64,000 bases of DNA from Natronococcus sp. A-GB1 (lineage in GTDB: Archaea; Halobacteriota; Halobacteria; Halobacteriales; Natrialbaceae), in assembly GCF_029688845.1 (NCBI RefSeq), contig NZ_JARUKW010000002.1, positions 1-64,000 on the forward strand. The letters run 5' to 3'. The position numbers were made by a program, and so were the translations under genes. Shown piece after piece: positions 59,847 to 64,000 of the stretch; position 1 is the first letter of the stretch, and each line of letters opens with the position of its first letter. The notes under the pieces were generated by a model. It was given only the letters and a program-made list of their open reading frames with translations. It was not told the DNA's origin and did not search any database.

Positions 59847-60329
59847 ATGTCAAACGGATATATAACGTCCGAAGAAAGCCTTCCGAACGCTGAAGAGACA
59901 GAAACAGTACTACAGGTGCGTGACGCTGAGACGAAGGAAATCTTCCACTCTCGGGCGCGTATCGCGAGGGACCCTGCACAGCTCGAACAACCGAAACCAC
60001 TCTCGGTCGTGAGAGGACCCCACGAGACGACAAAAGAACAGTGGTACATCGAGTTCGTTGATGAGACGACGACCACCGAGGAACGCCTCGAGCAGCTGCT
60101 CGAGAAGCAGGCCGACCGATCGAACGTTATTAACACGCGGTCGGGTGATTTAGACGTGTTGCTCCAGTATCTCGTCGAGACCGGACAGTACGAATCGACG
60201 GCAGACGCGACTCGCGAACTCCTGTTCAAGCAGCTCGCCGACGAGTATCCGTCGTTGCTCGAAACTTACGTGGATCTCAAAAACAGGCACGAGTCTGACC
60301 CGCTTCGGAACGTCCTCGAGGACGAATAG
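59847..60329 (+). CDS. Small protein with ribbon-helix-helix-like C-terminus, first gene of the UbiD operon
   Basis: 160 residues. The first half (20-75) is a small beta-rich domain; the second half (about 95-131, VINTRSGDLDVLLQYLVETGQYESTADATRELLFKQL) resembles a ribbon-helix-helix motif, with QYESTADATRELL matching the helix pair. It could bind DNA or act as a small subunit. The stop TAG is followed directly by the ATG of the UbiD gene. A TATA-like TATATAACG occurs inside the first codons (59860-59868), leaving a small doubt over the start. Confidence 0.55.
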   Translation: MSNGYITSEESLPNAEETETVLQVRDAETKEIFHSRARIARDPAQLEQPKPLSVVRGPHETTKEQWYIEFVDETTTTEERLEQLLEKQADRSNVINTRSGDLDVLLQYLVETGQYESTADATRELLFKQLADEYPSLLETYVDLKNRHESDPLRNVLEDE

Positions 60330-61838
60330 ATGTCGGCAAGCTCGTTTCGGACGTTTATCGACGTCCTCGAGCGCAGCGGCGCAATTACGCGGATCACCGA
60401 CGATGTCTCCTGGGATCTCGAGGCGAGCGCGATCACGATGATGGCAATCGAAACCGACGACCGGATCCCGGTTTTCGAGTCGGTTCAGAACCGTCAGTCG
60501 GATACCGACGCTCGGCTCGTCGGAGACCCCTATCGAGGTCCCCAACAGCGTCCCTGGAAGTGGTTCAGTCGTGCGTTCGATCTGCCGGGTGGTTCCGGAC
60601 CAGCCTACTACGAGGGGGTGATCGATCGACTCCGCGAACCGATCGAGCCGCGGATCATCCCCGACACGGAGGCCCCCTGCAAGGAGGTCATCCGGACAGA
60701 CGATGATGCGAGTTTGCTCGAGTTTCCCTGGCCGTATATCCACCAGGGAGACGGCGGTCGGTACGCGACGCTCACAACACTCGTCGCACCGGATCCGGAC
60801 AGCGAGTGGGGAAGCTGGTCGCGCCATCGCGCGATGATCCATGGCGCCTCACGGGCAAGTCTGCTCCTTTTGGCGGGTGAACAGGTCCCCAACCACTACT
60901 ATTTCAACTACGAGCTCGACGACGAACCGATGCCCGTCGCACTGACGATCGGTGCCGGCCCAGCCGTCGAGTCTACTGCAGAGATGTGGATACCCGTCGG
61001 ACGGAGCGAGGTATCCTTTGCTGGCGGGCTACAAGAGTCACCGGTCGACCTCGTTAGGTGTGAGACGAACGACCTCGCCGTCCCGGCCTCCGCCGAGGTC
61101 GTCATCGAAGGTCGGGTACTGCCGAACGAGCGCCTCCACGAGGGACCGTTCGGCGATTACTTCGGGTATATGAACGGTCCCCGCCGATCGATGCCGATAC
61201 TCGAGGTTGACGCGATCACCCACCGCAGCGACCCCTACGTTCCCTTCTGTGTCGAAGGGGCCGGTATCGGATACGGCGAAAACTCCTCGAGTACGTTCGC
61301 GGTCGCGGCGAGCGGCCCGGATGCAACACTCGGGCTACGGATCGCCGGCTTCGACGTCGAACTGGCCGCCCCGTGGCCGTTCACCTCTCGAACGGTCTGG
61401 GTCATCGCGGTTGATCCCGCCTATCCCGGCGTCCTCCACGAACTCGCTAACTTCATCTTCACGACCTGGGGGATGCTCCACATCGACTTCTTCGTCTTCG
61501 TCGACAGCGACGTTAATCCACTGTCGCCCCGTGCGGTGATCGAGGCGATCTCCCTTCATGCCGACCCCTCCTCGGACTTTCACCAGTTCGGCGTCGAGCG
61601 TATGCCGAAAGTTCCGCTCAACATCTACCAGACGCCCGATGAGAAGGGAAGCGCGACGGTCGGCACCTCGAAAACGAAGACGTCGAAGGCGTACATCGAC
61701 GCCTGCGCCGGCAGCGACCGGCCGGCACAGGTGGTCGGCGATCCCGACGCGCGCAAGCAGGCTCGCGAGTTGCTCGTCGAGGCAGGCGTTCCCGAAGCAG
61801 CGTTCGAACCACCGAACACGATCGGAGGGGATCGATGA
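60330..61838 (+). CDS. UbiD-family prenylated-FMN decarboxylase
   Basis: 502 residues. Compared with Fdc1/UbiD, the catalytic Arg is R167 in SWSRHRAMIHG and the acid pair is E271 ... D276 in HEGPFGDYFGY, i.e. the R-E-D/E triad is intact. H189 and E227 match metal-binding positions; the usual metal-binding Asn is Ser162. It should need prFMN from a UbiX not in this window and would (de)carboxylate an aromatic or alpha,beta-unsaturated acid. It starts directly after the small gene and overlaps the next UbiD-like gene by 4 bp. Confidence 0.88.
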   Translation: MSASSFRTFIDVLERSGAITRITDDVSWDLEASAITMMAIETDDRIPVFESVQNRQSDTDARLVGDPYRGPQQRPWKWFSRAFDLPGGSGPAYYEGVIDRLREPIEPRIIPDTEAPCKEVIRTDDDASLLEFPWPYIHQGDGGRYATLTTLVAPDPDSEWGSWSRHRAMIHGASRASLLLLAGEQVPNHYYFNYELDDEPMPVALTIGAGPAVESTAEMWIPVGRSEVSFAGGLQESPVDLVRCETNDLAVPASAEVVIEGRVLPNERLHEGPFGDYFGYMNGPRRSMPILEVDAITHRSDPYVPFCVEGAGIGYGENSSSTFAVAASGPDATLGLRIAGFDVELAAPWPFTSRTVWVIAVDPAYPGVLHELANFIFTTWGMLHIDFFVFVDSDVNPLSPRAVIEAISLHADPSSDFHQFGVERMPKVPLNIYQTPDEKGSATVGTSKTKTSKAYIDACAGSDRPAQVVGDPDARKQARELLVEAGVPEAAFEPPNTIGGDR

Positions 61839-63223
61839 CGGCATTTCGGAACCACATCCATTTTCTCCGGAAGACCGACGACTGCTGTTGGCTCGAGCGG
61901 CCCAAGTCGCCGTCACCCCAGGTTCTCGCCGGTGAGGCGCTTCGGGCGAACGGGCCGGCGCTGCGATGTACGACCGCCGACTCCCGTCTCGACCTCGTAA
62001 GCGGAGTCTACGGCGGTGTCGATGGGCTGAGTCGGCGAAGCCGATACCCCTGGAGCCGTCTCGGAATCGGTCTGGGTATCGATCAGGAGCCGGAGTACGT
62101 CGCTGTCCTCGAGGCGGTCACCGAACTGACAGACCGAGTCGACGAACACGGCATTACCTACGTCGAACGCGCGGCGACCGCCACGGATCTGAGCGTTCGG
62201 GAGCTCGGATTTCCGACGCCGCCGGACGGGACCTGGCCCAGACTGACACTCGGACTTCTCTCGGTTGGGACAGACGATGGTTCGTACTGGACGCCGATCC
62301 ACGGAACAGTTCTCGACGATGAAACGATTCGCGCTCGCGTCCCCGACGCGATCACCGATCGATTCGCTCGCGGCGGTATCGTCAGCGTCGCACTTGGAGT
62401 CCCGGCGGAAGCGCTCGCAGCGGCGTACCACCTGACGGTCACTGACGGTCTCTCGGTGCCAGTCGAGGATCGGCGCGTCGGCTCGACAGTCCCGGTGATT
62501 CCCACCTCTGGCGGACTCGTTCCCAGCTCTTCGGAGGTCGTCATTGAGGCTGAGATCGCGGATCAGCAGCCCGAAACCCGGTCGGAAAAACGTGAGTTCT
62601 GGGAACGGATCGCCGACAGCACGACGTTGACACTCGACGTAACCAATGTATTCACTCGTGATGGCGCCGTCGTTCCGTTTACGCCGCTCGACGTCCCGCT
62701 TTCGGACGATCTCCAGCTCGTCGCGCTAGCTCTGGCGGCACAGCTTTACGATCGGGTCAACAGCTACTGGGGCGTCGCGCCGGTCGAGTGGCTCTTGCTC
62801 CCGGCGAGCGGGCGACTCGGAATCTGTGTGGTTTCGGCGAAGATGCTGTACGCCGGCTTCGAGTGGCAGCTCTCGAATTTCCTGTTTTCGTTCTCGAACT
62901 GTTATGACACCGTCATTATCGTCGACGACGAAGCCAGCCCTCGCGACCTCGGACAGGTGCTTGCGGATATCTGGGTCAAAGCCCACCCGTCCCGAGACTG
63001 GCTGTTCAGCGAGTCCGACGCTCCCGTCGCCCGAATGCCGACGTACAGCCGTGAGGGGACCGGGGCGCGCCTCTATATCGACGCGACGTGGGATCCCCGG
63101 TGGGACGAAGAGTACATCGCTCCGCAGGTTTCGTTTACCGACTCGTATCCTCCAAATCTCCGGGCGGCCGTCCGCAGTTCGTGGGCCGAATTCGGATTTA
63201 ACACCAATCCTGACGGGCTGTGA
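61835..63223 (+). CDS. UbiD-fold paralogue without catalytic triad
   Basis: 462 residues, same overall fold as the preceding gene: WGVAPVEWLLLPASGRLGICVVSAKMLYAGFEWQLSNFLFSFSN and the terminal TWDPRWDEEYIAPQVSF. The VPSSSEVVIEAEI segment (229-241) is the counterpart of the UbiD VPASAEVVIEGRV, but the following EGPFGD motif is absent, and the catalytic Arg position is His156 (YWTPIHGTVL). It is therefore likely non-catalytic and a partner subunit of the upstream UbiD. Translationally coupled by the 4-bp overlap. About 260 bp of AT-rich DNA follow. Confidence 0.72.
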   Translation: MTAFRNHIHFLRKTDDCCWLERPKSPSPQVLAGEALRANGPALRCTTADSRLDLVSGVYGGVDGLSRRSRYPWSRLGIGLGIDQEPEYVAVLEAVTELTDRVDEHGITYVERAATATDLSVRELGFPTPPDGTWPRLTLGLLSVGTDDGSYWTPIHGTVLDDETIRARVPDAITDRFARGGIVSVALGVPAEALAAAYHLTVTDGLSVPVEDRRVGSTVPVIPTSGGLVPSSSEVVIEAEIADQQPETRSEKREFWERIADSTTLTLDVTNVFTRDGAVVPFTPLDVPLSDDLQLVALALAAQLYDRVNSYWGVAPVEWLLLPASGRLGICVVSAKMLYAGFEWQLSNFLFSFSNCYDTVIIVDDEASPRDLGQVLADIWVKAHPSRDWLFSESDAPVARMPTYSREGTGARLYIDATWDPRWDEEYIAPQVSFTDSYPPNLRAAVRSSWAEFGFNTNPDGL

Positions 63224-63378
63224 GCGTTCCCTGAAAGAAGGAGGGCTCGGCGGCAGGAGGTCCGAAGTAGTATCCCTGAACTAACGAAGTTGAGCATCCT
63301 TTCTATGAGTTACTATCATAGACGATCATATTGGTGGACTCATAGGTGTTTTCGAAAGTGTTTACGCAAGACTGCGCT

Positions 63379-63398
63379 GTGGTGTCTATATATACCAC
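63379..63398. promoter_or_regulatory. Possible operator/promoter: GTGGT-N10-ACCAC around a TATA-like core
   Basis: Inverted repeat GTGGT (63379-63383) and ACCAC (63394-63398) surround GTCTATATAT. It lies in the AT-rich 63300-63440 spacer upstream of the acyl-CoA synthetase gene and about 80 bp before its ATG. A closer TATA-like GTTATTAC (63450-63457) lies 25-32 bp before the ATG. The palindrome could bind a regulator. Confidence 0.4.
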
Positions 63399-63481
63399 TC
63401 TCAAAATTAAATTATATTTTTATTTTATTGTTCGAATTTAACCGATGCAGTTATTACGGAAAACGAGACCAGCGAAGTTGT

Positions 63482-64000
63482 ATGACGGGCAGCCACAACA
63501 TGCCGGGGTACGAGGAAGTGTACGACGAGTTCTCGTGGGACGAAATCTACGAGGCCGCTGACTGGAACGCACCCACCGAACTGAACATTGCACACGAAGT
63601 CTGTGACCGCCACGCCGAGAACAAGGAGAAGGTCGCGCTCTATCAGGTGAGCGAGGACGGCGAGTTGACGACGATGACGTTCTGGGAACTCGCCGATCGG
63701 ACCGATCGGTTTGCGAACGTCCTCGAGTCGCTCGGCATCGAACAGGGCGACCGCGTCTTCTCGTACATGCCACGGATCCCCGAACACTACGTGGCGCTGG
63801 TGGGAACGCTCAAGCGCGGCGCCGTCTTCGGCGGCGTCAACGAGCGGTTCGGCCCCGACGGCATCTCCTATCGACTCTCCGACTGCGACGCGAAAGCGAT
63901 CGTCACGACTCCCGAAAACCGCGACACCGTCGCGGACGCCCTTGAGGACGCCCCTTCGGTCGAGCACGTCATCGTCGTCAGCGACGATGGAACGGGCATT
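63482..64000 (+). CDS. Acyl/acetyl-CoA synthetase (AMP-forming), 5' part
   Basis: 173 codons in the window; the gene runs off the right edge. N-terminus SHNMPGYEEVYDEFSWDEIYEAADWNAPTELNIAHEVCDRHAENK matches acetyl-CoA-synthetase-like enzymes, then the ANL core begins with MTFWELADRTDRFANVLESLGIEQGDRV and IVTTPENRDTVADALEDAP. The P-loop is outside the window. It would activate an acid to its CoA ester. It follows the UbiD pair on the same strand across a 258-bp spacer with its own promoter signals. Confidence 0.85.
   Translation, partial: MTGSHNMPGYEEVYDEFSWDEIYEAADWNAPTELNIAHEVCDRHAENKEKVALYQVSEDGELTTMTFWELADRTDRFANVLESLGIEQGDRVFSYMPRIPEHYVALVGTLKRGAVFGGVNERFGPDGISYRLSDCDAKAIVTTPENRDTVADALEDAPSVEHVIVVSDDGTGI

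Follow-up and report, generated by a model that had tools for sequence, protein, structure and literature searches.

Organization and conservation of the locus

The 64,000-nucleotide stretch that we analysed (the window; start of contig NZ_JARUKW010000002.1 of Natronococcus sp. A-GB1) carries near its end a catalytic-type UbiD gene placed between a small gene and a second gene of degenerate UbiD type, and this raises the question of what such a set of genes does in a genome with no UbiX. Our answer, to which we give a probability of about 0.6, is that the trio encodes one obligate three-component UbiD-family (de)carboxylase system; this (de)carboxylase most likely serves CoA-dependent acid catabolism, and its complex, substrate and cofactor are what we infer.

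All genes of the locus are on the + strand. The small first gene of the trio (59847–60329, 160 aa, from the ORF call) ends with a TAG whose last base, 60329, directly precedes the ATG at 60330 of the catalytic UbiD-family gene (60330–61838, 502 aa; ORF call, Pfam/NCBIfam and PDB phmmer), and the TGA of the latter (61836–61838) overlaps the ATG at 61835 of the pseudo-UbiD gene (61835–63223, 462 aa) in the string ATGA, so that both the abutting start and the 4-bp overlap described in the first-pass annotation are confirmed. The gap between the small gene and UbiD is ≤4 bp in 25 of 28 loci, and the UbiD/pseudo-UbiD junction is −4 or −1 in 26 of 28. An A+T-rich gap of 258 bp (63224–63481) lies between the end of pseudo-UbiD and an AMP-forming acyl-CoA synthetase (Pfam AMP-binding; 560 aa), which starts at 63482, fills the window to 64000 and is complete in the contig past it; given this gap, the synthetase may be transcribed from a promoter of its own. 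Terminator and promoter patterns were found at no more than chance level, and no inverted repeats that might form an operator were found near the small gene.

A single pattern-based scan across bacterial and archaeal genomes yielded 27 loci, all of them haloarchaeal, and in 27/27 the small gene, UbiD and pseudo-UbiD are contiguous and in the same order. Hence the earlier view of UbiD and its degenerate relative as a conserved pair is borne out at every locus found, but it overlooked the equally strict tie of the small gene to the pair. The dN/dS values of 0.05–0.32 across all three genes indicate purifying selection, and together with the contiguity in every locus they show that the trio is not a chance arrangement. 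The same trio is present on annotated haloarchaeal plasmids, and two of these records label the small gene ‘ubiD operon protein’. A survey of the class Halobacteria covered 292 genomes, whose species may overlap with those of the 27 loci. Pseudo-UbiD (scored at E < 1e-100) is present in 67 of them, about a quarter, and the small gene in those same 67, and the pair is distributed among five families and numerous genera; the one extra match to the small gene outside these 67 was weak and partial (E 2.7e-4). Pairwise protein distances also correlate (r 0.91 for UbiD with pseudo-UbiD and 0.95 for UbiD with the small protein), to which shared species history contributes. Pseudo-UbiD was found neither elsewhere in our sample of the phylum nor at any non-haloarchaeal locus of the bacterial and archaeal scan, and the sole non-haloarchaeal match in the plasmid collection was Azoarcus ppcA at 24% identity. 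Two genomes (G240 and G318) carry two copies of the pair each; in G240 the small gene beside one copy is partial, and the intact one is located on another part of the contig, away from both copies. A search of the open-access literature, which leaves most subscription journals uncovered, returned nothing on haloarchaeal UbiD pairs, ‘ubiD operon protein’ or a UbiX-less UbiD.

The catalytic subunit

The first UbiD matches the Pfam families UbiD (E 9.8e-62), UbiD_C (2.2e-14) and UbiD_N (2.3e-7), all above cut-off, with a PF01977 score of 208 bits against a cut-off of 23.3, and it matches ferulic acid decarboxylase in a PDB phmmer search with E 7.3e-45. The nearest solved relatives by sequence, for this protein and for pseudo-UbiD, are ferulic acid decarboxylases and PA0254. 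The triad R167/E271/D276, noted from the window alone, is invariant in 28/28 homologues and matches that of 13 UbiX-associated or solved UbiDs. Moreover, the EGP-GDYFGY motif is invariant in the subfamily, 176 residues are invariant across the 28 homologues, and E227 is retained at the Glu metal-ligand position. The roles of these metal-ligand and catalytic residues are ones that we take from general knowledge of Fdc1. The R/E/D chemistry implies that the predicted enzyme would bind and use a prFMN-like cofactor.

Other positions have changed. The Asn metal-ligand position holds Asn in just 1 of the 28 homologues, which is not decisive since PA0254 has Ser there, and PA0254 is active despite this Ser. 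Aligned with UbiX-associated UbiDs, the subfamily shows Trp replaced by Glu405, Pro by Ile432 and a basic residue by Asp386, together with an invariant Trp220; Glu405 and Ile432 set it apart from nearly the whole comparison set, and position 386 is sensitive to the alignment in the PA0254 and Fdc rows. As read from the alignment, these substitutions of metal and phosphate ligands are suggestive, short of decisive.

Separation from UbiX

UbiX was held to be obligatory for all UbiDs in earlier work (PMC8379154). The genome of the window (99.96% complete) encodes a single UbiD; UbiX is absent, and the sole PF02441 protein is CoaBC. Across the 292 Halobacteria genomes UbiD is present in 90 (E 1e-10 or better), and UbiX, scored as present above the curated cut-off, in exactly 23: it was found in 0 of the 67 genomes with pseudo-UbiD versus 23 of the 23 remaining UbiD genomes, none of which has pseudo-UbiD. 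The Fisher p of 6e-22 for this split ignores relatedness and so counts more events as independent than it should. Outside Halobacteria, the phylum's other classes have UbiX in 153 of 156 UbiD genomes, and the three exceptions are 83–87% complete. Within the collection of 27 loci, PF02441 gives CoaBC alone in 26 of 27 genomes. Halobellus rufus (L031, L109) is the sole pair-bearing genome that we met with a UbiX; there the UbiX gene adjoins ABC transporter genes, and no UbiD lies in the 12 kb fetched around it.

That UbiX was missed through assembly gaps is unlikely, because all 67 genomes are 94–100% complete and all are negative, and the 26 of 27 PF02441 results agree. We also rejected CoaBC as UbiX in another form: all the pair genomes checked have it, as do UbiD-less controls, which points to ordinary coenzyme A synthesis. 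Haloferax volcanii matched neither UbiD nor UbiX when searched as a control. The UbiX-supplied prFMN named in the earlier proposal cannot come from these hosts by the known route, since the carriers, Halobellus rufus apart, lack UbiX, and no known prFMN-making enzyme is present in the host genome. This separation of the trio from UbiX is the surprising part of the present results. With the link to UbiX lost, this UbiD may have ceased to work as a decarboxylase.

We consider the odds about even that this UbiD has been freed from UbiX, obtaining prFMN by a non-UbiX route or using another cofactor, with the dead UbiD-fold partner and the small protein dedicated to it. The alternative that survives best, and which we regard as credible if somewhat short of even odds, is an ordinary prFMN-dependent heteromeric UbiD whose prFMN is made by a flavin prenyltransferase of non-UbiX origin or is taken up from other members of the brine community. 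The full conservation of R167/E271/D276 and E227, amid so many invariant residues, would suggest that prFMN-type chemistry is retained, and prFMN is to our knowledge the sole cofactor that supports such chemistry in the UbiD family (PMC8379154). However, neither 26 of the 27 pair genomes nor the window's own genome encodes a UbiX-family protein beyond CoaBC, the Asn metal-ligand position is almost always changed (as it is in PA0254, which still works), and we know of no description of prFMN uptake. More tentatively, the trio could be a UbiD-fold system that works with plain FMN, with another cofactor or with none, and catalyses a different reaction, pseudo-UbiD completing the active site. The clean split from UbiX and the altered Glu405, Ile432, Asp386 and Trp220 would fit this, but the invariant R/E/D network and EGP-GDYFGY motif argue against it, and the substitutions come from an alignment in which position 386 is unstable.

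The degenerate partner and the small protein

Pseudo-UbiD matches Pfam UbiD_C (4.1e-11), and its match to the UbiD rift domain, at 14.1 bits, is below cut-off. An AF2 model based on 28 homologues (pTM 0.76; mean pLDDT 72.7, but poor past residue 371) aligned structurally with HmfF at Z 30.6 over 369 residues and with PA0254 at Z 28.7, at identities of 17–19%, which agrees with the proposal that the second protein keeps the UbiD fold. The reported loss of EGPFG(D/E) is general (absent in 28/28), and no hidden R-E-E/D triad was found in the alignments. The His reported at the catalytic Arg position is seen in the window's clade (WTPIHG), whereas most other clades have Arg (W-PVRG or W-PIRG); judged from the alignment it is a trait of the clade, not of the partner in general. 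Decay of the second UbiD into a pseudogene was rejected, as it has dN/dS of about 0.06–0.25 and is full length at all loci. Only 7.6% of residues in its middle domain are invariant versus 29.9% in its C-terminal domain, compared with 39% and 42% for the catalytic UbiD (Fisher p 2.5e-5). Conservation is thus centred on the C-terminal domain, as expected of a protein whose active site is gone and whose binding role remains.

For a model of the interface we read the two genes of Halopenitus persicus (L027), which are in the same frame with one TGA between them, through as one chain; those of the window overlap in different frames. About 155 row subsets were aligned in MAFFT, and one was kept, before folding and solely on the placement of rows by half. 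With only 4 UbiD rows in the alignment, the fusion reached pTM 0.49 (versus 0.76 for pseudo-UbiD alone). Hence, for the proposed heteromeric enzyme with a non-catalytic partner, the conserved pair speaks in favour, but the relative placement of the two halves is unsupported in the fusion model.

The small protein has a conserved GPHExxxExW motif, contains 0 cysteines in its 160 residues and has no Pfam match above cut-off. Its C-terminal half aligned with ParD antitoxin over 29 residues at E 0.79; the earlier label ‘RHH-like’ is therefore plausible but weak, and the protein may simply be an RHH autoregulator. An operon of separate functions, in which an active UbiD, a UbiD-like protein with its own binding role and an RHH autoregulator stand side by side, would be in keeping with the ParD-like match, with the frequency at which operons begin with their own regulator and with the detached intact small gene of G240, but we think it unlikely given that the same 67 of the 292 genomes contain all three and that reading frames overlap.

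Catabolic context and a working model

All 36 loci examined lie within CoA-dependent catabolic clusters, and these are of two kinds. Type A comprises 15 loci (the window, L004–L014, L060, L061 and L064) and has acyl-CoA dehydrogenase, biotin carboxylase and carboxyltransferase genes in one order, often with MaoC. The acyl-CoA synthetase, to which the first-pass annotation gave a possible role in activating the product, is the first gene of the type-A downstream set and stands outside the core trio: it is present in 12 of the 15 type-A loci, but the 21 type-B loci (L015–L030, L059, L062, L063, L065 and L066) have another gene set instead. Type B has PaaABCD-like oxygenase genes and ferredoxin and/or thiolase/DUF35 genes, with a metallo-beta-lactamase-fold gene nearby in most, and its further genes are for acyl-CoA dehydrogenase and enoyl-CoA hydratase. 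By analogy, the dehydrogenase, carboxylase and hydratase order recalls the leucine/isovalerate route, and type B has the look of CoA-dependent breakdown of aromatics.

Past the window, its own contig (L003:2307-13469) continues with acyl-CoA dehydrogenase, biotin carboxylase with BCCP, carboxyltransferase, a Liv-type ABC transporter and a PF04909 amidohydrolase; the transporter, which follows the synthetase set, is of the branched-chain-amino-acid type, and the region is likely an island dedicated to importing and degrading an acid. At L059:15415-20929 and its type-B equivalents the metallo-beta-lactamase-fold gene overlaps the end of pseudo-UbiD and adjoins the PaaABCD-like di-iron oxygenase genes, a set suggestive of an aerobic haloarchaeal pathway for CoA-dependent breakdown of aromatics.

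In the three-component system that we favour, the catalytic UbiD would associate with pseudo-UbiD by way of the C-terminal domains, which serve homo-oligomer formation in ordinary UbiDs, and each complex would then consist of working and non-working protomers. VdcD and LpdD suggest by analogy that the small protein may be a third subunit, an activator or a regulator. The reaction that we would expect of the UbiD subunit is the reversible decarboxylation of an aromatic or unsaturated acid or of the corresponding CoA ester, and the acid would be taken up and processed by the downstream CoA-dependent genes. For the cofactor step, prFMN may be made by another enzyme or acquired from outside, or a different cofactor may be used. 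If the UbiD is active, then prenylated flavin must be made or obtained in a way not yet discovered, or else decarboxylation by the UbiD fold can do without it, and either answer would alter the annotation and engineering of UbiD genes. Moreover, the pair is a clean case of a dead paralogue retained as a constant partner, and the subfamily can be recognised by its degenerate UbiD partner and small protein.

Comparison with known systems

The clusters for phenylphosphate carboxylase (Ppc, PpcABCD) and for benzene and naphthalene carboxylases, like the trio, hold more than one UbiD-like gene and a small subunit in one operon. The likeness to phenylphosphate carboxylase drawn earlier is only a partial analogy. 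PpcB retains the Arg and PEGPFAEY, whereas the haloarchaeal partner has no such motif; the Azoarcus Ppc cluster includes UbiX, whereas carriers of the trio lack it; and no ppcC- or ppcD-like genes were seen near the trio. Scores against the NCBIfam equivalogs for the Ppc alpha and beta subunits are also far below the cut-offs, at 151 versus 564.6 bits and 83.6 versus 468.95 bits for the window UbiD, and at 34 and 20 bits for pseudo-UbiD.

In VdcCD, as in the trio, the UbiD is encoded with a small partner, and this obligatory partner, VdcD, activates the UbiD subunit (PMC8379154); however, VdcD has a zinc ribbon and CXXC motifs, unlike the cysteine-free small protein of the window, and Vdc has no second UbiD-like subunit. 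LpdD, a chaperone of prFMNH2 for the gallate decarboxylase LpdC that acts downstream of UbiX-made prFMNH2 (PMC10865409), is likewise small and encoded with its UbiD, and neither Pfam nor PDB sequence searches gave similarity between it and the small protein. Both VdcD and LpdD work with the UbiX-made cofactor, and they therefore leave a UbiX-less trio unexplained. PA0254/HudA and Fdc1 are homodimers dependent on UbiX, in contrast to the haloarchaeal proteins, whose carriers have none, yet they are the closest solved relatives of the catalytic subunit and have the R/E/E(D) network in common with it.
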